A stretch of 13,042 nucleotides of DNA from Candidatus Hydrogenedentota bacterium (GTDB lineage: Bacteria; Hydrogenedentota; Hydrogenedentia; Hydrogenedentales; JAGMZX01): contig JAKQEQ010000064.1 of the NCBI GenBank assembly GCA_029556545.1, positions 1 through 13,042 on the forward strand, read 5' to 3'. Below the pieces are notes generated by a model, which saw nothing but the letters and a program-made list of their open reading frames with translations, searched no databases and was not told where the DNA came from. Shown here in pieces: positions 3,376-12,955 of this stretch. The number at the start of each line of letters is the position of its first letter. Position 1 is the first letter of the stretch. The position numbers and the translations under genes are program-made.

Positions 3376-5021
3376 GCGGGCCCGCCGACAAAGACGCGGT
3401 CGTGTCTGAGGTGAAGCTGCGCGTTCGGGGCAGGGGCCATTCCGGCCGCCGCGTGACGCGGGGCTGGTGGGACCGTCTCGGCGAAACCCTCGACAACGCG
3501 ATCGGCGTGGTATCGCCCCGTCGGGCGTTGCGGCGCCAGACCGCGCGCAACCGGCGGTACGCGCTCCAGGCCGTGCGGAAGATTCTCGGAGACGCCTCCG
3601 ACGCGGCCAGCATTTCGCGGCTGAACTCGAGCTGGTCAACCGTATCGGGTTCCGCGGACGCGGACACGCTCAGCGAATTGTCGGCGTTGCGGGGGCGGTC
3701 GCGGCGGCTCATGGACAACGACGGCCACGCGAACGGCATCATCAGCACCATCGTCAACAACGTGGTCGGGACCGGCATTCAGGTGCAATCCCTTGCCGAC
3801 GGCGCGAAGCTGGGCATCTCCGACAAGGCCGCCGAGGCATTGCGGAACGCCCAGGAAGACGCGTGGGAGAGCTGGGGGCGGACCTGCGACGCGAGCGGGC
3901 GTCTGTGTTTCGAGTCCCTTGAGCGCCAGGTGGCGTTTCAGATTCTCATGAACGGCGAGGCGTTCCTGTTGCGGGCCGATTTGCCCGGGCGTCCGTACCG
4001 CTTCGCGTGGATGCACATCGAGGCCGATCGCGTGGATTCGCCGCCCGAGTACGAATACCGCCGCGACCTCGACGTGCGCAAAGGAATCGAGCTCGGTAAG
4101 TTCGGCGAGCCGGTCGCGTACTGGATTTCCAAGGTGCACCCTGGCGACGACCGGGCCGTGCGGAACAAAGCCGATTACGAAAAAGTGCCGGCCTACGACC
4201 GGGACGGCCGCCCGAACGTCCTGCACATTTACGACCAGCGCCGGCCAGGGCAGCGGCGGGGCGTTCCGTTCTTGCGGCCAGTCATGCAGTACTTCCAACA
4301 CCTCTCGCAATACCTCGAAGCGGAACTGGTAGCAGCGCGCGTAGCCGCGTGCTTCGCCCTGGTCATCAACGAAGAAGGCGACCCCGGGACGATGACCGGC
4401 CACGGCGAACTGACGACTGTGGACGGGCAGACAGTGGAAGCCCTCGAACCCGGGATGATCCTGCGCGGCAGCGGCATTTCGCCGACGCAAATCAAGCCCG
4501 AACGGCCGGGGGAGAGTTTCGACCCGTTTGTGCAGCGCGTATTGCGCCTCATTTCGGCGGGGTGCGAGCTGCCGTACGAACTCGTGGCAAAGGATTTCAG
4601 CGAGTCGAACTACTCGAACATGCGCGCGGCGCTCCTTGAAGCGCGGCGGTTTTTCCGGGTCTACCAGCAACTGCTGGGGGAGAAATTGATCCGCCCCTCG
4701 TGGGGGCTGGTCCAGGAAGAAGCCTTTTTGCGCGGGTACGTCCCGATGCCGGATTTCTACGCCAACCGCGAGGCGTACCTGCGCGTGGCAATCGTCCCGC
4801 CGGGCTGGGAATGGGTCGACCCCGAGAAGGAGGTGCGGGCGTCGCTGCGCGCGGTTGCGGGGAACCTGAGCACCCTGGCGATTGAGAACGCGGCGCGCGG
4901 ACACGACTACGCGGAAGTGCTCGAGCAGCGGGCGCTCGAAGAGCGCCGCATGAAGGAATTGGGACTCGAAAACAAGGAGGACCCGGTTGATGAACGGGTT
5001 TCGACTCGCACAGAAGAATAA
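3372..5021 (+). CDS. Portal protein (lambda gpB family)
   Basis: 549 residues, against 533 for lambda gpB. It would form the dodecameric ring at one capsid vertex through which DNA enters and leaves. The strongest signature is residues about 106-136, LRGRSRRLMDNDGHANG followed by IVNNVVGTGI, the conserved N-terminal block of lambda-type portals. Further family features are the FQILMNGEAFLL segment, the helix-rich middle with FLRPVMQYFQHL, SNYSNMRAALLEARRFFR (the crown/stem region), and the C-terminal PPGWEWVDPEKEVRA segment. The first 60 residues are strongly basic. The C-terminus (KELGLENKEDPVDER) is charged and its coding sequence overlaps the protease gene by 32 bases. The AAGGAGG site for the protease lies inside the portal coding sequence, so the two genes are probably translationally coupled. 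Confidence 0.93.
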   Translation: MSGPADKDAVVSEVKLRVRGRGHSGRRVTRGWWDRLGETLDNAIGVVSPRRALRRQTARNRRYALQAVRKILGDASDAASISRLNSSWSTVSGSADADTLSELSALRGRSRRLMDNDGHANGIISTIVNNVVGTGIQVQSLADGAKLGISDKAAEALRNAQEDAWESWGRTCDASGRLCFESLERQVAFQILMNGEAFLLRADLPGRPYRFAWMHIEADRVDSPPEYEYRRDLDVRKGIELGKFGEPVAYWISKVHPGDDRAVRNKADYEKVPAYDRDGRPNVLHIYDQRRPGQRRGVPFLRPVMQYFQHLSQYLEAELVAARVAACFALVINEEGDPGTMTGHGELTTVDGQTVEALEPGMILRGSGISPTQIKPERPGESFDPFVQRVLRLISAGCELPYELVAKDFSESNYSNMRAALLEARRFFRVYQQLLGEKLIRPSWGLVQEEAFLRGYVPMPDFYANREAYLRVAIVPPGWEWVDPEKEVRASLRAVAGNLSTLAIENAARGHDYAEVLEQRALEERRMKELGLENKEDPVDERVSTRTEE

Positions 5022-6018
5022 GCGCCTGGAACTCGACCTGTACGGAATCGTGGGGGACGAGTGGGGCGACGGCATCAACGCGAAGAAGGTGGTGGCGCTA
5101 TTGCGCAACGCCGCCGACGCCGAAGAGATCGTGGTCCGCATCAACTCGATGGGCGGCGTCGTGTGGGACGGCACGGCGATTTTCGATGCGCTGACAGATC
5201 ATCCGGGGAAGGTGCTCGTGAAGATCGACGGGATCGCGGCGAGCGCGGCCTCGGTGATCGCGATGGCCGGCGACCGGATCGAGATGGGCGAAGGCGCGTT
5301 CCTCATGGTTCACCAGCCCTGGGGATTCGCCGTGGGCGACAAGGAAGACATGCTCAAAACGGCGGAAATCCTCGAGAAGGTGGAGGGGGAGATCGTGGGG
5401 ATTTACGCGCGGCGGAGCGGCCAGGACGCGGAGACCGCACGCGATTGGGTGCGGAACGAGACGTGGTTCACGGGCGCGGAAGCCGTGGAGGCGGGCCTGG
5501 CGGACGCGGCCGTTGCGGACGCGGAGAGCACCGAGAAGGCTGCGCGAGCCTATGCGCAGCAGGGGGCGATTTTCAATTTCGCGCACTTGCCCGAGCCGCT
5601 GAAGGCACGGGTGGAGGCGCTTAACCAGGCGGGCGGAGCACTTCCGCCGCCGGAAGAGGAGGGGATGTCGATGAAGGACATCACGACGATGACCTCCGCG
5701 GAGCTTGCGGAAGCCCGCCCCGATTTGGTGGACGCCATCAAATCGGAAGCGCTGAAGGGCGCCGCAGCCGAAGTGGAGGCGGCCGTGAAGGCCGAACGTG
5801 AGCGTGCCGGAAGCATCGCCGCGAAAGCGCGGGAGCTGAGCAGCTCCGTCGACGCCGGGGAGTTGATCGCGAACGGCGCGACGCTCCAGGACGCGCGCGA
5901 GCTGATGCTGAAGGCGAAAGAAGAGGAGCTTCACGCGGGGGCGCAAGCCGCGAACGTGGGGCACGGCGAAGGCACGGAGGATTCGGCAGCGAATCCGTTC
6001 CTGCCGGTGGAGGGGTAA
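4990..6018 (+). CDS. ClpP-like head maturation protease with C-terminal scaffold domain
   Basis: 342 residues. Residues 10-180 are a ClpP/SppA-fold serine protease that would cleave scaffold and portal during head maturation. The triad is visible by alignment with ClpP: Ser85 in GIAASAAS, His108 in MVHQPWG, and Asp172 in EAVEAGLAD; INSMGG (51-56) matches the substrate strand. Residues about 200-225 are a Pro/Glu-rich linker. Residues 228-342 are Ala/Glu/Lys-rich, mostly helical, and end AANPFLPVEG, like a scaffold. This two-part layout resembles lambda C/Nu3. ATG 4990 is chosen (AAGGAGG at 4974-4980); TTG 4987 directly before it is an alternative. It overlaps the portal gene by 32 bases. Confidence 0.9.
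   Translation: MNGFRLAQKNKRLELDLYGIVGDEWGDGINAKKVVALLRNAADAEEIVVRINSMGGVVWDGTAIFDALTDHPGKVLVKIDGIAASAASVIAMAGDRIEMGEGAFLMVHQPWGFAVGDKEDMLKTAEILEKVEGEIVGIYARRSGQDAETARDWVRNETWFTGAEAVEAGLADAAVADAESTEKAARAYAQQGAIFNFAHLPEPLKARVEALNQAGGALPPPEEEGMSMKDITTMTSAELAEARPDLVDAIKSEALKGAAAEVEAAVKAERERAGSIAAKARELSSSVDAGELIANGATLQDARELMLKAKEEELHAGAQAANVGHGEGTEDSAANPFLPVEG
5671..6018 (+). CDS. Nested in-frame scaffold protein (Nu3-like), internal start
   Basis: Within the protease gene, a perfect AGGAGG (5657-5662) precedes an in-frame ATG at 5671 by 8 bases. Another ATG at 5665 is too close to the site. Initiation there would give a 115-residue protein (MKDITTMTSAELAEA...) equal to the C-terminal part of the protease, rich in Ala, Glu and Lys, predicted helical and without the catalytic domain. 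In lambda, scaffold Nu3 is made exactly this way from inside gene C. The sequence shows the site and the composition; production of the shorter protein is inferred. Confidence 0.6.
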   Translation: MKDITTMTSAELAEARPDLVDAIKSEALKGAAAEVEAAVKAERERAGSIAAKARELSSSVDAGELIANGATLQDARELMLKAKEEELHAGAQAANVGHGEGTEDSAANPFLPVEG

Positions 6019-6021
6019 GCG

Positions 6022-6396
6022 ATGGCGATAACGGGGACGAGACTCGCGTGCGCACTCGCGGAGACAAAAGCGCTCACCTTGACGGCGGCCAGCCCCGGCG
6101 TTGTGGCCGGGACGATGGCGAAGGTCGAGGACGTTGTCGGCTTTTACTTCAAAGCCGCGGACACGGGCGATTCGGTGGCGTTCATCTACTACGCGCCGAA
6201 GGTCACGGTGCCGTGCGCAGCCGCCGCAAGCGGTTCGTACGCGGTGGGGTCGAAAGTGTATTTCGACGCCGCCGAAGCGGAAGTGAATGAAAGTACGACG
6301 GGGAACACGCTGTGCGGCGTGGTCCTCGAACAGCCGGCCACGAGCGCCGAAGAGGTGCTGATCGCCCTCGACGGAACGCTCGGGATCGTGAGCTAG
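6022..6396 (+). CDS. DUF2190 family capsid decoration-type protein
   Basis: 124 residues, in the position where lambda has decoration protein gpD. The sequence looks like the DUF2190 family: a small beta-rich protein with an N-terminal LTLTAASPGVVAGT strand pair, an ADTGDSVAFIYYAPKVTVP core, GSYAVGSKVYFDAAEAEV, and a C-terminal EVLIALDGTLGIV strand. These proteins are thought to bind the outside of the expanded head as trimers and stabilise it. ATG 6022 has GGAGGGG (6009-6015) and lies three bases after the protease stop. Family by sequence pattern; virion role by analogy and position. Confidence 0.75.
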   Translation: MAITGTRLACALAETKALTLTAASPGVVAGTMAKVEDVVGFYFKAADTGDSVAFIYYAPKVTVPCAAAASGSYAVGSKVYFDAAEAEVNESTTGNTLCGVVLEQPATSAEEVLIALDGTLGIVS

Positions 6397-6412
6397 GAAG
6401 GGGGTGACGACC

Positions 6413-7432
6413 ATGGTGCGAAAATTCCAGGTGTGTGACTGGCGCGCGGTGAAAGCGGCGCTGGCCGGCAAAGAGCGGGTAGACGCCGAGACGAGCGGCA
6501 ACATCCGCGCGGCCATCAACACGTTCCTCGCGAAGCCGCCATCCAGAGTGTCTCAGGCGCTCGATGTGCGGGCGGCAGCCACGTCGGACGATTTTCCGAC
6601 GACTGTTCTTCCGGTAGTGCGGAAGTTTCAGCAGACCGACTACTACGACGACGGCTGGGAGTCCGTTTTCGACGTGCTCGATTTCACTGGCTCGAACCGG
6701 AACGGGTTCGAGATTCTGGACATCGAGGACGGCCTGAGCTTCCAGCTCGTGCCGGAAGGCGAGAAGGCGCAGGTGTACAAGGTCAAGGGCACGAAAGCGC
6801 CCGTGACGTTCGACATGTACGGGGGCGGCCTCGGCTGGTCCCGGCGCCTGCTCGACGACGAGGAATACTGGGCCATCGAGAACGCGGTGATCTCGTTCCG
6901 CAACAAGTGGTACGCGGACCGATCCGAGATCGCCTACGCGCTGATCGAGGCGCTGAGTTCCTCGTACAACGTGAGCTGGCAGGCGGCGGTGCCGGCCTCG
7001 CTGGCGTCGAGCGATCCGAACTACACGGCGGTGCGGGACATCGAGACCGTCAACAAGGCGTGCTACGACATCCTGAACGCGGTGAAGGGCAACGGATACG
7101 GCGCATCGCCGAAATCGGTGTTCGTGCTGTTGTACCCGCTGGCCCTGTTGAGCCGGATCAACCGCGCGCTGGGCCTGTTGAATTCGGGCCTGGCCGGAAC
7201 GTTCCCGGGCGTGCAGTACAACGTGATGCCCGTGCCAACGCTGGGGCTGACAGGGACCACGTCCTACTACGTGGCGCTTCCCAGCAACAAGCTCATGTGG
7301 GGCGACCGGATGAATCTGACGGTTCTTCCGGACTTTGATCCCGCGTCGTATTCGGACACCCAGTACGGGTGGGGCCGGTACGGCGGCGCGATCGGCGACT
7401 CAAACCAGATTCGCCGTTGCGCGACGAGCTGA
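6413..7432 (+). CDS. Major capsid protein
   Basis: 339 residues, close to lambda gpE (341), presumed HK97 fold, forming the icosahedral shell. The N-terminal 45 residues are helical and basic, without an obvious long delta domain. Residues about 60-150 read like the N-arm and E-loop strands (VRKFQQTDYYDDGWESV; then YKVKGTKAPVTFDMYGGGLGWS). Residues about 155-190 are a long spine-like helix (EEYWAIENAVISFRNKWYA, then EIAYALIEALSS). The C-terminal A-domain ends with MNLTVLPDFDPAS and YGRYGG-like strands. ATG 6413 has AGGAAGGGGG (6395-6404) upstream; GTG 6404 overlaps that site and is less likely. A strong hairpin follows the gene. Assignment rests on length, pattern and position after protease and decoration genes. 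Confidence 0.82.
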   Translation: MVRKFQVCDWRAVKAALAGKERVDAETSGNIRAAINTFLAKPPSRVSQALDVRAAATSDDFPTTVLPVVRKFQQTDYYDDGWESVFDVLDFTGSNRNGFEILDIEDGLSFQLVPEGEKAQVYKVKGTKAPVTFDMYGGGLGWSRRLLDDEEYWAIENAVISFRNKWYADRSEIAYALIEALSSSYNVSWQAAVPASLASSDPNYTAVRDIETVNKACYDILNAVKGNGYGASPKSVFVLLYPLALLSRINRALGLLNSGLAGTFPGVQYNVMPVPTLGLTGTTSYYVALPSNKLMWGDRMNLTVLPDFDPASYSDTQYGWGRYGGAIGDSNQIRRCATS

Positions 7433-7451
7433 TGGGCTGACGAGGAGTAAC

Positions 7452-7481
7452 ACCCGGGGATCTCGAGAGGGGTCCCCGGGT
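7452..7481 (+). terminator. Strong intercistronic hairpin after the capsid gene
   Basis: ACCCGGGGA (7452-7460) pairs perfectly with TCCCCGGGT (7473-7481), nine base pairs around a 12-base loop that itself contains the palindrome TCTCGAGA. Only a weak T-rich stretch (TTCTC) follows, so it is a poor intrinsic terminator. It more likely stabilises the 3' end of the capsid mRNA or reduces read-through into the glycosyltransferase gene. The ribosome site of that gene (AAGGAG, 7486-7491) is directly downstream. Confidence 0.45.
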
Positions 7482-7496
7482 TCTCAAGGAGCGTTC

Positions 7497-8876
7497 ATGC
7501 CGACTGTAATCACCACACATGATATTGCCTGCCGGAGGCGCCAGGCGCTTCCGGATATTCAATCGCCTGCGGCGGACATCATCACGACGCGGAGTATGCA
7601 GAGCGAGCGCGTTCCGCAGCGGATCGGGTACCGGATGGTGCACGCGACGCTGGGGCGGGACGCGTGGGCAGCGGCACCGCGGGTCTGGATTATCGGGGGC
7701 GGGCCTAGTCTGCGCGATTTCGACTGGGAACTCCTGCGGGGCGAAGTGGTGCTCGGATGTAACCGGTGCTACGAACGGCCGCACGTGGGGACCACGATAT
7801 TCATCGACGGCGCGGACGCGTCCGGATTTCTGGCCTGGGCGGAAGCCGGTCGGTTTGGGGGATCGTGGAAGACCTACACCGGGCTGAAGGTGTTCAGTCA
7901 GCTCGAGGGGAAGAACGGAACGCTGGCCGACGACGTGTATGTGGTGACGCGCAAGCGCACCGCGGGCGACGCGCTCGACATGGAGGGCGGGTTGCCACAA
8001 ACCAACAACACGGGGACGCTGGCGCTCCAGTTCGCGGCGGCCCTGGGCGCGAAAGACATCCGCCTGTTGGGGTTCGACCTGGGGAGCGCCGGGAAAACAC
8101 AGGAGCATCACCACGGGGGATATCCCTGGCACGTGCAGCAGGCGGACGTGTGCGAGGGGATGATTCCCGAGTTTGAGAAGTGGGCGGCATTGCTGAGCCT
8201 GCGGGGCGTCCGCGTAACGCAATACGGCGAGAGCCGGTTGACGTGTTTTGACAAGCGCCCGATCGAGGACGCGGCTGCGGAGCTTGAAACGAAACCGGAG
8301 CGGCCCCTTGCGGTGTGCGCGATCACGCCCCAATACCGGCACGAGGCTGAGGAGATGGTGCGGACCGCGCGGGCCATGGGGCTTGAGGTAGTGGTCGAGG
8401 AATACGCGGATCGCGGCAACTGGTACCTGAATACCCATTACAAACCCGAGTTCATGGGGCGGATGCTGCGCGAACACAAACGGCCGATCCTCTGGCTTGA
8501 TGCGGATTCGCGCGTGCGAAAGTACCCGGTACTGTTCGACGAGCTCAAGGCGGACGTGGGCTGGGTCTGGTGGGACTGGGACGAGGTTGGCCGCAGGGGG
8601 ATTGAGGGGCTCGAGCTGAGCACGTCCATTCTCTACCTGAAACCCAAGAAGGACGTGTACCGCCTGCTCGACGCGTGGCAGCAGATCAATGCGGAGCGTC
8701 CCGGCCAGCACGACCAGGAGAATCTACAGGCCCTGCTCGAGGGCGGATTCAAACAAGGGCGGCTCAAGGCGGAACTGCTGCCGATGAGCTATGCGCAGAT
8801 TTACGACCTCCAACGGACGATCGGCGAACCCGTGATTGAGCAGATGCAGGCGAGCCGCCGGTTGGGCGAGAAGTGA
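7497..8876 (+). CDS. Two-domain glycosyltransferase-like protein (GT42/DUF115-like plus GT-A-like)
   Basis: 459 residues. Residues about 62-250 resemble the GT42 sialyltransferase/DUF115 fold: VWIIGGGPSLRDFDW (63-77), a GCN at 87-89, NTGTLALQFAAALGAKDIRL then GFDL (171-195), and a His cluster HHHGGYPWH (204-212) where GT42 enzymes carry a catalytic His. Residues about 268-420 resemble a nucleotide-sugar GT-A transferase: PRPLAVCAIT-type first strand, LWLDADSRV with Asp335-Ala-Asp337 as a metal-binding DxD, GLELSTSILYL and HDQENLQ (405-411). The first 60 residues are unassigned. No signal or membrane segment. ATG 7497 has AAGGAG (7486-7491); the open frame upstream reads through the capsid gene and hairpin and is rejected. 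Substrate unknown; it could modify a virion protein or host glycan. Activity is inferred from motifs only. Confidence 0.65.
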   Translation: MPTVITTHDIACRRRQALPDIQSPAADIITTRSMQSERVPQRIGYRMVHATLGRDAWAAAPRVWIIGGGPSLRDFDWELLRGEVVLGCNRCYERPHVGTTIFIDGADASGFLAWAEAGRFGGSWKTYTGLKVFSQLEGKNGTLADDVYVVTRKRTAGDALDMEGGLPQTNNTGTLALQFAAALGAKDIRLLGFDLGSAGKTQEHHHGGYPWHVQQADVCEGMIPEFEKWAALLSLRGVRVTQYGESRLTCFDKRPIEDAAAELETKPERPLAVCAITPQYRHEAEEMVRTARAMGLEVVVEEYADRGNWYLNTHYKPEFMGRMLREHKRPILWLDADSRVRKYPVLFDELKADVGWVWWDWDEVGRRGIEGLELSTSILYLKPKKDVYRLLDAWQQINAERPGQHDQENLQALLEGGFKQGRLKAELLPMSYAQIYDLQRTIGEPVIEQMQASRRLGEK

Positions 8877-8877
8877 C

Positions 8878-9258
8878 ATGAGCGAATTTCGCGAACAGAT
8901 GGCGGAAGACATCGAGAACGTGTTTCTGAACGCGGCCGAGTTCGCGGAAGAGATCGAATACCACCGGATCGTGGACGGCGAGGAGGCCGAAGGGTTTCCG
9001 CTTGACCTGCTGGTGGTGTGCGAAGACGTTCAAGTGGACCGGGAACTCTATCCGGACCAGGTGCTGAGCGACACGCGGTCGATGGTGGCGAATATCCCGA
9101 CCGCGCTGGTATCGCCGGCGATCAGCACGGATTACATCGAGCGCGACGGCGAAGATTGGACGGTGGTCGAAATACTGGGCGAGAGCGAGGGCATGGCGCG
9201 AATCCGCACGGAAGCGCTGGGCCTGGTAAGGCGGGGTGGCCGGGAGATTGAACGGTGA
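8878..9258 (+). CDS. Head completion / head-tail joining protein candidate
   Basis: 126 residues, starting one base after the preceding stop. An N-terminal helical, acidic segment (residues 1-27, MSEFREQMAEDIENVFLN) is followed by a beta-rich core (YHRIVDGEEAEGFPLDLLVVCEDV, then DTRSMVANIPTAL, VSPAISTDYIERDGEDWTVVEIL). This helix-plus-barrel layout, and the closing 'value of the gap' type strand GEDWTVVEI, resemble FII/stopper-type connector proteins that sit below gpW and close the head. Size (lambda FII is 117) and position between the capsid and the tail connector fit. No catalytic motif is visible. It could instead be a general adaptor of the same fold; family membership needs a profile comparison. 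Stop overlaps the next gene's GTG (GTGA). Confidence 0.5.
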   Translation: MSEFREQMAEDIENVFLNAAEFAEEIEYHRIVDGEEAEGFPLDLLVVCEDVQVDRELYPDQVLSDTRSMVANIPTALVSPAISTDYIERDGEDWTVVEILGESEGMARIRTEALGLVRRGGREIER

Positions 9259-9932
9259 GCGTTACGGTGCCAGATGTAACGGGGCTTGACGCCGAAGGGG
9301 CGGAAGACGCGCTGATCGCCGCTGGCCTCACTCTCGGTACTGCTACAACTGCGCACAGCCGTACGGTGGAGAAGGATCTGGTTATCAGCCAAGACCCAGC
9401 GGCGGGCGAGGAGGTCGAACTGGGTTCGCCTGTTGCGGTGTTGATCTCTCTTGGACCGGTCACGCCGACAGGAGTACTGGGGAAGCTGGTCGACGGGCTT
9501 CGGAAGTGCGTAGCCTCGAGCGTGACATTTCAGAAAATGGTCGGGGCGGACAACGCGACCGAAGCGCTCGAATATGTCTACGCGTGGCAGATGGAGGATT
9601 CCGTCGAGCCGCCATTCGCGTTCGTGGGTCCGTCCGAAGAGATTCGGGAACGGGTTTCGACGGCGGGGGCGTATCCCGAGCGCGGGGGCCTGGTGCTGGG
9701 GGTTGTGCTCGAACTCGAGGACGGCGACGAGCTCGAGGCGTTTTACACCTTCGACAACGCGAGGGACGCAATCATTTCAGAGGTATGCGCAAAGGCGGAA
9801 TCGTCGGGCTTTGTTCATATAAACACCATAGAGCTCGACGCGGACGGATATGGATTGTGGGGCGCGCGGGAGGCGCGGGCCCGGGGGAAGAAAGGCATTC
9901 AAGCCTGGCACACGGTGACGTGGGGCTTTTAA
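9255..9932 (+). CDS. PASTA-domain protein, probable tail connector or terminator
   Basis: 225 residues. Residues 4-67 match a PASTA domain: VPDVTGLDAEGAEDALIAAG, a middle strand, then VISQDPAAGEEVELGSPV and AVLISLG; the V-P-x-V-x-G opening and the S-Q-x-P-A-x-G block are diagnostic. PASTA domains are known from PknB-type kinases and penicillin-binding proteins, where some bind peptidoglycan. Residues 70-225 are an unrecognised alpha/beta domain (LGKLVDGLRKC; a beta-rich GGLVLGVVLELEDGDELEAFYTF; closing WHTVTWGF). Position after the head completion gene and before the tail-tube candidate suggests a tail terminator or connector role like lambda Z/U. GTG 9255 overlaps the previous stop (GTGA), with GGGAGA (9242-9247) upstream. 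No signal peptide. Domain call strong, virion role inferred. Confidence 0.6.
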   Translation: MSVTVPDVTGLDAEGAEDALIAAGLTLGTATTAHSRTVEKDLVISQDPAAGEEVELGSPVAVLISLGPVTPTGVLGKLVDGLRKCVASSVTFQKMVGADNATEALEYVYAWQMEDSVEPPFAFVGPSEEIRERVSTAGAYPERGGLVLGVVLELEDGDELEAFYTFDNARDAIISEVCAKAESSGFVHINTIELDADGYGLWGAREARARGKKGIQAWHTVTWGF

Positions 9933-9947
9933 GAGAGGAAACGAACC

Positions 9948-10829
9948 ATGGAACGCTTCGCAATAGGGCCGGTGGTGATTGGGAGTACGGTGCTGTGGCA
10001 GACGCTGAACGTCCGGGTGAATCCGGGAATTCAGCGGCTCGTGCAGAGCGCTCAGCGCGTGGATACCGCGTTCGCCGGGGCCATCAAACAACTGCCGATG
10101 CTGAGTTTCGACACGCACGCGATCGCGAAGGCGATTGGCGCGATTGGATTCGTCGGAGAGAACGCGGCCACCGTGGACGTGTATTTCCGCGCGCTGGAGC
10201 ATGGTGGCACGTTCCAGGCAGGAGCCAAGCACGTGAAGGTGACGCTGTACGACACGCTCGGGATTCTGCGGCGAATTCGCGCGAACCAGTGGGCGGAAGC
10301 GACGGCGAGCTTCGATGTGATTGGCGTGTTCAACGGAACGCAAGCGCCCATCGCGATCGCGACCGAGCAATCGCTCCCCGCGTACACAGCCGCAAACATC
10401 GAGAAGTTTACGGTAGGGCCCGCGCTGCTTGACGCGGTTCCGCTTGACAACATTCAGTCCTTTGAGCTCGACACGGGGATCCGCGAAGTGGCGGACGGCC
10501 AGGACGGGGGGTTGTACGCACGGTTCGCGGCGATTCACGAACGCCAGCCGATCATCCGCGCGACGACCTTCGACTCGAGCGTGCTCGACACGATCGGCGA
10601 AGGCGGATCGAGCCAGGATGACGCGACGTTCTTCCTTCGCGGACTGACCAACAAAGGCGAACCCGTCGCAGACACCACGGCGGGGCACATCAGCATCGTG
10701 GCGGCAGAATCGCACGTGACGGTATCCGACATGGGCGAGACGACCACGATCGAGGTGCGGCCGGTGCACGATGGCACGAACGACCTGCTGTCGATTACGG
10801 CCGCGCAGGCAATCAGCTCGGAGACGTAG
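9948..10829 (+). CDS. Duplicated-domain structural protein, tail-tube candidate
   Basis: 293 residues made of two diverged copies of one domain. Copy A (about 2-143) starts ERFAIGPVVIG; copy B (about 152-291) starts EKFTVGPALLD. Both continue through a beta-rich segment to an IG followed by charged residues, then NAATVDVYFRAL / DDATFFLRGL, and end in matched strands (TASFDVIGVFNGTQAPIAIA / TTIEVRPVHDGTNDLLSITA). The all-beta pattern and position after the connector genes fit a tail-tube protein. Phage T5 pb6 is a known tail-tube protein with a duplicated tube domain. I recognise no family directly, so tail tube is inference; a baseplate or other tail protein is possible. ATG 9948 has GAGAGGAA (9933-9940). 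No Cys, no signal. Confidence 0.5.
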   Translation: MERFAIGPVVIGSTVLWQTLNVRVNPGIQRLVQSAQRVDTAFAGAIKQLPMLSFDTHAIAKAIGAIGFVGENAATVDVYFRALEHGGTFQAGAKHVKVTLYDTLGILRRIRANQWAEATASFDVIGVFNGTQAPIAIATEQSLPAYTAANIEKFTVGPALLDAVPLDNIQSFELDTGIREVADGQDGGLYARFAAIHERQPIIRATTFDSSVLDTIGEGGSSQDDATFFLRGLTNKGEPVADTTAGHISIVAAESHVTVSDMGETTTIEVRPVHDGTNDLLSITAAQAISSET

Positions 10830-10831
10830 AC

Positions 10832-12955
10832 ATGAAACGGTTTTTGATGGCGGCGGCGGTGGTGGTGGTGATCGTGGCGACCGTGGCCGCGGCGAACCAG
10901 ATGTACCAGCTCGAGATTTACGAATGGCTGCGGTTCCGGGACGATACCCTGATCACGTTCGGGACGGCGGACGATTTCTACGGCTTGTACGCGAGCGCGG
11001 ATGACCAGCTCGAGCTCCGCTCGGGGAACGACGGCGAACTACTCGTGGTAGTGGACCATGACGGGCTCGGGCTTCCGGCGGATCTCGACGTGGCCGGGCA
11101 GATCGAGGCGGGGACGGGGAACCACACGCTGACGAACGCGGCGGGGCTGATCGACGGGGGGAAAATTCAGGCGGGGACCATCACGGCAGCGCAGGTGTAT
11201 GCGGCCGGGCTGGCGGACGGCGCGATTTTCTACGTCGACGACGCCGCCTGGACGGCGGGGGTGATCACCGGGCACGGAACGCTCGACGGCGATGGGGCGT
11301 TGACCGTCCAGACCTACACGTGGGATTCGGGCGGCACGACGGGCCTGGTGCCGGATGCGGCCGACGGCACAACCGATCGGTTTTTGTGCGTGGATGGCAC
11401 GTGGAGCGTGCCGAGTATCGGGGCGGTGGGGGGTCCCGGCTCGAGCACCGACAACGCCGTCATGCGGTGGGACGGAACCGACGGCGACACGGCACAGAAC
11501 AGCCTGGTGATTATCACGGACGGCGGCGCGGTCACGATCCCCGGCACCCTGACGGTGGGCTCGGGCGCTCATTTGTGGAGCAATACGGCCGGGCTGATTG
11601 ACGGAGGGAAGCTCCAGGATGGGACGGTGACGACCCTCAAGATGGCCGCAACGGCTGTTGTGCCGGGTTCGTACACCGTCACATCGCTCACGGTCGACGC
11701 ATCCGGCCGGATTACGGCGGCATCGAGCGGCACGCTCGGGCTGATCGAGCTCGATGATGGCGAGACGGACTACGATGGGGCGGCAGGGTATCCGGTGGTG
11801 GTGAACGCGCTCGAGGACGGCTGGGAGTTTGCGAGCGAACTGGACCCGACCGTCCTTCCGGTCTTCACGGGCGACTCGGGGAGCGGGGGCGTCCAGGGGG
11901 TTGTGCCGGCGCCTACGGCAGGCGATACGGCGGCGGGGAAGTTTTTGTTTGCGGACGGCACCTGGGCGACCCCCAGCGGGACCGGCAACGTGGCCGGGCC
12001 GGGGACGTCGACGGATAACGCCCTCGCGCTGTTTGATGGCACAGATGGGCAGCTCCTGCAGGACTCGAACATCACGAGTTCGGACGGGGACAGCCTGACG
12101 ATCCCGGGGACGATCACGGCGGGCAGCGGCGCGAACGTGCTGACCAATAGCGCCGGCCTCATTGACGGCGGGAAGGTCCAGGCTGCGAGCATCGGGATCG
12201 CGGCGGTCGATATTGCCACCGGGACCGCCGAGACCACGGCCGATGATGCCGACCTCATCCTGATTTACGACGACACCGCCACGGCCAACCGGGTGATGAC
12301 GCGCGGGGATTTCCTGAGCGGGATCACGGGGGGGGCGGGCGCGTTCACGGACCTGACTGACGCGCCATCCGCCTATACGGACGAGGGCGGGAAGTACGTG
12401 CGGGTGAAGGCGACCGAGGACGGCCTCGAGTTCGCGGCCGTGAGCGGCGGCGACGCGGGCCCGGACACGCTGTGCTCCTGGCGCGTGAGCGATGCGACCC
12501 CGCATCCGAATTATCCCGCGCAGCTCGATACGCGCAACTCGAACACGGTGCTCGATTTCGACGCGAGCACCGATGAAACGATGTATTTCGACGACATCCT
12601 GCCGCGCCGGTACGGCGGAGGCGGGGTGGTTGTCGAGATTCACTATGCGATGACCACCGCGACCTCCGGCAACGTGGTGTGGATGGTGGCCTGGGAGAAC
12701 CAGGCGGACGAGGCGCAGGACCTCGACAGCGACGGGTTCGCGAGCGCGAAGACGGTGACACACGCGGTGAGTGATACGAGCGGGAAGGTGAAACGCGCAA
12801 CGATCTCATTTTCCGACGGCGCGCAGATGGACAGCGTGGGCGCGGGCGATCTGTTCAGGATGAGCTTGGTGCGCGATGCGGACAATGCGAGCGATACCGC
12901 GACCGGCGATGCCGAGGTGCGGTTTGTCCACGTGTACGAATACGAGGCGGAATGA
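10832..12955 (+). CDS. Repetitive tail-fibre-like protein with N-terminal signal sequence
   Basis: 707 residues. Residues 1-21 (MKRF, then a hydrophobic Ala/Val stretch ending VAAAN) look like a Sec signal or a membrane anchor, with cleavage possible near 20/21. The start is firm: ATG 10832 follows GGAGA (10820-10824) and the preceding stop. Residues 85-540 are Gly/Asp/Thr-rich fibre repeats: three units with AGLIDGGK (104-111, 253-260, 441-448), two GPG-STDNA blocks with DGTDG (201-218, 389-406), and KFLFADGTW-type strands, all common in tail fibres. FTDLTDAPSAYTDE with KYVRVKATEDGLEF (505-534) is another recurrent fibre motif. Residues 547-707 are a beta-rich C-terminal domain (LDFDASTDETMYF, TSGNVVWMVAWE, DAEVRFVHVYEYE), a likely receptor-binding head. 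Fibre assignment is strong; the signal is unusual for a virion protein. Confidence 0.75.
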   Translation: MKRFLMAAAVVVVIVATVAAANQMYQLEIYEWLRFRDDTLITFGTADDFYGLYASADDQLELRSGNDGELLVVVDHDGLGLPADLDVAGQIEAGTGNHTLTNAAGLIDGGKIQAGTITAAQVYAAGLADGAIFYVDDAAWTAGVITGHGTLDGDGALTVQTYTWDSGGTTGLVPDAADGTTDRFLCVDGTWSVPSIGAVGGPGSSTDNAVMRWDGTDGDTAQNSLVIITDGGAVTIPGTLTVGSGAHLWSNTAGLIDGGKLQDGTVTTLKMAATAVVPGSYTVTSLTVDASGRITAASSGTLGLIELDDGETDYDGAAGYPVVVNALEDGWEFASELDPTVLPVFTGDSGSGGVQGVVPAPTAGDTAAGKFLFADGTWATPSGTGNVAGPGTSTDNALALFDGTDGQLLQDSNITSSDGDSLTIPGTITAGSGANVLTNSAGLIDGGKVQAASIGIAAVDIATGTAETTADDADLILIYDDTATANRVMTRGDFLSGITGGAGAFTDLTDAPSAYTDEGGKYVRVKATEDGLEFAAVSGGDAGPDTLCSWRVSDATPHPNYPAQLDTRNSNTVLDFDASTDETMYFDDILPRRYGGGGVVVEIHYAMTTATSGNVVWMVAWENQADEAQDLDSDGFASAKTVTHAVSDTSGKVKRATISFSDGAQMDSVGAGDLFRMSLVRDADNASDTATGDAEVRFVHVYEYEAE
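11093..11185 (+). repeat. Fibre repeat unit 1 (AGLIDGGK type)
   Basis: Coding repeat, fibre residues 88-118. It contains AGTGNHTLTNAAGLIDGGK followed by IQAGTIT. It aligns without gaps to the units at 11543 and 12107, and conservation is higher in the protein than in the DNA. Confidence 0.75.
11543..11632 (+). repeat. Fibre repeat unit 2 (AGLIDGGK type)
   Basis: Coding repeat, fibre residues 238-267, GTLTVGSGAHLWSNTAGL then IDGGKLQDGTVT. It is preceded by the STDNA/DGTDG block and an IPGT strand, as is unit 3, so units 2 and 3 share a larger repeat of about 65 residues. Confidence 0.75.
12107..12196 (+). repeat. Fibre repeat unit 3 (AGLIDGGK type)
   Basis: Coding repeat, fibre residues 426-455, GTITAGSGANVLTNSAGL then IDGGKVQAASI. 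It is the last unit before the FTDLTDAPS segment that leads into the C-terminal domain. Confidence 0.75.

Follow-up and report, generated by a model that had tools for sequence, protein, structure and literature searches.

The window analysed here is the whole of a 13,042-nucleotide contig (C73) within a 6.1 Mb genome bin of a Candidatus Hydrogenedentota bacterium. It carries a phage head gene block in which genes for a terminase, a portal, a ClpP-type protease, a decoration protein and a major capsid protein (MCP) are followed by a fused two-domain glycosyltransferase (GT) gene and a connector- or minor-tail-like gene (Table 1). The boundaries assigned to the GT gene in an earlier note on this DNA proved exact, with an ATG at 7497 and an ORF of 459 aa, and its placement among capsid and head-completion genes is borne out by its position between the MCP gene and the connector/tail-completion-like gene. 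All motifs quoted there for the enzyme (GGGPSL, GCN, GTLALQFAAALGAKDIRLLGFD, DAD at D335/D337, and DQEN) were found in its sequence.

Table 1. Features of the head gene block and of the fused enzyme, in window coordinates
Feature	Position	Strand	Basis
Head decoration protein gene	6022..6396	+	PHROG 122 head decoration, E 5.7e-10
Major capsid protein (MCP) gene	6404..7432	+	Pfam Phage_capsid_4, 27.2 bits (cut-off 27)
Shine-Dalgarno-like AAGGAG	7486..7491	+	Sequence; 5 nt before ATG 7497
Fused two-domain glycosyltransferase gene, 459 aa	7497..8876	+	ORF, profiles, AlphaFold2 model
Disordered N-terminal tail, residues 1-42	7497..7622	+	pLDDT below 50
Tail motif copy 1, VITTHDIACR, residues 4-13 (window: VITTHDIACRR)	7506..7535	+	Motif model, regex enrichment
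Weaker tail motif copy 2, IITTRSMQSE, residues 28-37	7578..7607	+	Sequence; loose regex only
N-domain, Maf/DUF115- and CstII (GT42)-like, residues 57-262	7665..8282	+	PHROG 4603, CstII profile match
His206 codon, candidate catalytic residue of N-domain	8112..8114	+	Conserved in 72/73 relatives
C-domain, GT-A fold, A064R-D1-like, residues 267-459	8295..8873	+	PF03407; VIA Z 17.9 to 2p72 over 268-458
DxD motif D335-A336-D337	8499..8507	+	Invariant in 45/45 relatives with C-domain
Next gene, minor tail/connector-/tail-completion-like	8878..9258	+	PHROG 2551, E 7.7e-8

The enzyme consists of a disordered tail, an N-terminal domain (N-domain) and a C-terminal domain (C-domain), and contains no hydrophobic stretch of transmembrane strength (maximum 19-residue Kyte-Doolittle value 1.15). 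When aligned with 73 relatives, it was modelled by AlphaFold2 with a mean pLDDT of 88.7 and a pTM of 0.87; without an alignment the pLDDT was 37. No full-length homologue was found among the 68 genomes searched in the window's phylum. Bacterial proteins with the same Maf/DUF115-like domain occur in the window's own genome (G000:C42:71283, L002) and in its phylum (L003).

The fusion of two transferase-type domains, as first proposed from the motifs, is upheld by matches beyond chance in both halves, profiles supporting each of them and the fold supporting the C-terminal one. The N-terminal half is matched by PHROG 4603 ('alpha-2,3-sialyltransferase') at E 3.7e-16 over profile positions 1-175 of 178; hmmsearch of the PDB with a profile of nine phage homologues gave matches to CstII structures (E 1e-5) and to 5mu5, a Maf structure (4e-4), and a second profile (A5) matched CstII at about 1e-3. 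The correspondence with CstII extends over the nucleotide-binding half, including GxGPSL and the later SG...LG...G.D segments, and stops before the CstII catalytic His. The designation 'GT42/DUF115-like' is therefore apt, with the reservations that the window protein scores 17.5-20.2 bits against a gathering score of 34.6 on the MptE-like/Maf family PF01973 (which one relative, L088, exceeds at 39.7) and that the Asn of the CstII GNG motif is replaced by Gly (GGG) in all 73 relatives, so that donor contacts should differ from those of CstII. Residues R62, GGG67-69, S71, N89, D104, G192 and D194 are invariant across the 73 relatives, and H206 and Y209 are conserved in all but one of them.

The C-terminal half passes the PF03407 cut-off of 22 bits when the domain is taken alone (24 bits, E 4.3e-5), the whole protein scoring 21.8. 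Comparison of the AlphaFold2 model with solved structures (Foldseek and VIA) returned domain 1 of the chlorovirus PBCV-1 protein A064R (PDB 2p6w/2p72/2p73) as the best match (VIA Z 17.9, rmsd 2.8, 177 residues), with the next family at Z 16.0; across residues 265-459, numerous GT-A chains score Z 15-18. The matched structure is recorded as taking part in glycosylation of the major capsid. A064R domain 1 has been assigned to the Glyco_transf_34 fold class (PMC9614988), and the C-domain of one relative scores on that family. In the model, a beta strand (331-334) precedes the putative D335/D337 metal site; together with the domain-level PF03407 score, the fold and this conserved site bear out the earlier GT-A assignment. 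The conservation of putative catalytic residues argues, at the level of sequence, that both domains would be active enzymes; a shared fold with A064R is in itself no demonstration of activity.

The earlier note had implied that such a fusion is rare, which is wrong because it recurs throughout a phage lineage: profile scans recovered many fused relatives on uncultivated phage contigs. In most relatives with the upstream region covered, the gene lies directly 3' of an MCP gene homologous to that of the window, and the order decoration protein, MCP, GT is conserved. The window MCP shares 40-46% identity with the MCPs of other GT-linked phages. In a first scan with MCPs only, the N-domain adjoined the MCP in 32 of 33 informative loci; with a second, broader MCP set, which includes a cultured Microcystis phage, it did so in 55 of 61, some of the six negatives having less than 900 bases after the MCP. 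Clustering at 90% identity gave 90 MCP clusters (80 with the N-domain adjoining the MCP, eight too short to judge and two without it), that is, 80 of the 82 informative clusters for all loci. Counting MCP-seeded loci alone, the N-domain is immediately downstream in 65 of 67 informative clusters (about 97%), the MCP queries having been GT-linked MCPs (A4) or mostly GT-linked MCPs plus that of locus L156 (A6). Distances among MCPs are correlated with those among N-domains (r 0.57) and among C-domains (r 0.51), with a permutation p of 0.0005 in both cases. Both exceptions are revealing. One, L156, represents an empty site, its MCP gene running straight into the head-tail adaptor gene, after which come minor head and neck genes. 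The other is MACPNOA1, a cultured Microcystis phage with a distant MCP and no N-domain gene beside it; no cultured phage was found with both a lineage MCP and the enzyme.

Such adjacency could arise because the gene needs strong late expression, or because it hitch-hikes within a single lineage. The first of these possibilities enters into the proposal that the enzyme, during infection or lysogeny, alters a glycan on the host surface and so blocks superinfection, its place in the head operon serving late expression alone. Host glycans are a frequent target of phage glycosyltransferases in general (PMC12619734), some relatives carry partner domains of the GT9 and capsule-synthesis types, and in jumbo phages remote homologues are found within clusters of several GT genes; yet the gene is fixed beside the MCP with distances that track it, the enzyme is without a membrane segment, and late expression with the capsid genes comes at an unfavourable time for surface remodelling. 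Host-surface modification is accordingly considered unlikely, and the two-sugar glycan on the host surface raised by the earlier note gained no support, whereas its other suggestion, glycosylation of a virion protein, has acquired strong circumstantial support from the MCP linkage, the A064R-like fold, the empty site of L156 and the sugar cassette of L060 described below.

Hitch-hiking bears on a further alternative, in which the gene would be a moron of the late operon whose product acts on a small molecule or on a different part of the virion (tail fibre, decoration protein or tape measure), the position of the gene beside the MCP being inherited and not functional. A single lineage could indeed fix adjacency by descent, PF01973 also names an archaeal pterin diphosphokinase, and N-domain homologues of jumbo phages adjoin tail genes. 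These remote homologues, the 'alpha-2,3-sialyltransferase-like' PHROG 4603 proteins of Caulobacter, Brevundimonas and Xanthomonas jumbo phages, share 24-31% identity with the window N-domain, but they are single-domain proteins whose genes lie in GT clusters or close to genes for tail or lysis functions and not by an MCP of this family, so that the domain is not confined to head gene blocks; in CcrColossus, an annotated nucleotide-diphospho-sugar transferase lies three genes downstream of the PHROG 4603-type protein. Against such passive inheritance, adjacency persists at a mean identity of 47% among MCPs while the partner domains swap freely, and the tail motif considered below is concentrated in MCP-linked members; the moron explanation is judged improbable.

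The partner exchange itself is extensive. Behind the N-domain, the 80 MCP clusters comprise 35 with a GT-A domain in the same ORF, 21 with another partner, 20 without a partner (fewer than 60 aa left) and four that are cut off, and the partners match GT-A, GT2, GT9, GT29, capsule-synthesis and methyltransferase families, a methyltransferase being fused in L054, L061 and L076. A gene of its own, just 3', encodes the C-domain in L108, L113 and L150. Since the N-domain is constant and the partners vary, we infer that the step common to all, which may prime the protein, falls to the N-domain and the step after it to the partner. In L017, the fusion is directly followed by a second, tandem GT-A copy in its own gene (6546-7244), and a further DUF115-like, GT-A and GT4-like fusion appears in the jumbo phage LR756500, where the flanking domains were read by eye.

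Another line of evidence concerns the donor sugar. In L060 the MCP gene is followed by a cassette of radical SAM protein, fusion, methyltransferase, CTP_transf_3 cytidylyltransferase (CMP-sugar synthetase/NeuA-like) and NeuB (4.9e-80), and the presence of the last two points to a CMP-nonulosonic acid as a candidate donor, by analogy with Maf and CstII. Among 28 virus records, a single one contains NeuB, and donors may therefore vary or come from the host; the matches to CTP_transf_3 and the single weak match to NeuB in the bacterial genome G000 are not decisive for a host source of nonulosonate. The sugar-biosynthesis region adjoining the MCP of L060 is large (4279-12891), with two radical SAM proteins and a transketolase N-domain besides the methyltransferase, cytidylyltransferase and NeuB.

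A further alternative is DNA hypermodification, in which the two domains would attach sugar to a modified base in the phage's DNA. Phage GTs that glycosylate hydroxymethylcytosine are cited in two reports (PMC12619734, PMC9614988), but a thymidylate-synthase-like (dCMP hydroxymethylase) gene was found in no MCP-linked record, its only two matches both falling in non-MCP-linked GT records, and the relatives of the N-domain act on protein or glycan acceptors, which together make this explanation very improbable. Glycosylation of the virion is thus favoured over both host-surface modification and DNA glycosylation.

In the relatives, the disordered tail carries one to three copies of a motif of approximate form ILTxSDLPKR. 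The motif model scores 526 on the tails and 148-159 on shuffled tails, and a strict pattern finds 31 sites where 0.36 are expected, figures that overstate the significance because related tails are not independent; the occurrence of multiple copies at varying positions is the stronger argument for the motif. With the strict pattern, two copies occur in only 1 of 3755 other ORFs, and the motif is present in 42 of 61 MCP-linked and 3 of 14 unlinked family members. A docking role for the tail may be proposed on this basis. The subclade of L107, L110, L090 and L067 has a tail of another conserved type (YRVRPGYIIHLPFKRMLRGGELLENPSPE) in place of the ILTxSD motif. A likeness between MCP and tail peptides ('GKIVSDW' and 'GKIIRISDL') was dropped as too weak.

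Taken with the two transferase families and folds, these observations lead to a main reading, held at a probability of roughly 60%, in which the product of the gene is a bifunctional glycosyltransferase, soluble and cytoplasmic, that belongs to the head module, is dedicated to the virion and glycosylates the MCP in the first place. In this mechanism, the tail with its repeated short motif would anchor the enzyme to its client or to the head during assembly; the N-domain of Maf/CstII type, common to all relatives, would transfer to the capsid protein, or to a glycan already primed, a sugar that may be a CMP-activated nonulosonic acid; and the C-domain, as a predicted metal-dependent GT-A enzyme with a DAD site and the A064R-D1 fold, would add a second sugar, a step that in relatives may be swapped (GT2, GT9, GT29 or capsule-type domains) or extended by a methyltransferase. 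The lineage MCPs end in a conserved R-C-x-T-S/A (7411-7429 in the window, and relatives); these C-termini were considered as glycosylation sites and set aside, because the GT-less L156 keeps the same ending.

The constituent domains are of families already known, and there are precedents for glycosylation of virions. With two GT domains and a methyltransferase, A064R assembles the terminal part of the PBCV-1 capsid glycan (PMC9614988, PMC7826918) and is, like the window enzyme, a virus-encoded, soluble, multidomain transferase with a GT-A domain of the same fold; the methyltransferase fusions of some phage relatives resemble A064R-D3. In contrast to A064R, however, the window protein has no methyltransferase domain; A064R, for its part, belongs to a giant algal virus, has the order GT, GT, methyltransferase and, as described, no Maf/CstII-like domain. 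Flagellin is the acceptor of Maf enzymes, whose Maf_flag10 domain is similar to Cst-II (PMC11339370); the Maf/DUF115 flagellin nonulosonic-acid transferases are related in sequence to the window N-domain, and the known cases involve cytoplasmic O-glycosylation of a structural protein, although Maf proteins have N- and C-terminal domains of their own and no GT-A fusion. Mycobacteriophage capsids are reported to carry glycans (PMC11256854, PMC12619734), and these secondary reports describe, for capsid and tail-tube glycosylation of the Che8 type, phage-encoded GTs as proposed here; in that description, the GTs of a related phage lie near the genome 3' end and no MCP-adjacent fusion is reported. 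No earlier account of an MCP-linked fusion family was found in the open-licence literature.

That dozens of uncultivated phages keep a relative beside the MCP gene suggests that many phages sugar-coat their own capsids. To our knowledge, phage capsid glycosylation is known from a few mycobacteriophages and has no general genetic signature. Should the main reading hold, virion glycosylation would become predictable from sequence through an enzyme fixed by the MCP gene in about 97% of the informative members of the lineage, and an MCP-linked phage system would stand in parallel with chlorovirus A064R and the bacterial Maf systems. On a broader and more tentative view, for which the odds are somewhat less than even, a large uncultivated lineage of tailed phages may possess a dedicated, MCP-linked protein glycosylation system. 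Its constant part would be an obligatory priming domain of Maf/CstII type, docked on the capsid by way of the tail motif; its exchangeable part, a second transferase, would in some cases be joined by a methyltransferase or by nonulosonic-acid biosynthesis, so that every phage would have a capsid sugar coat of its own. This raises the question of whether a capsid glycan serves phages in protection, in surface adhesion, or in immune or host recognition.

Two further genes of the window deserve mention. The gene after the connector-like gene (9255-9932) encodes an N-terminal PASTA domain (PF03793, 4.9e-14), which is unusual for a phage head-tail block, and a 707-aa low-complexity protein with 'DGGKIQAGTI'-type repeats (10832-12955), similar to the CcrColossus tail protein gp125 (6.8e-22), is probably a tail fibre.
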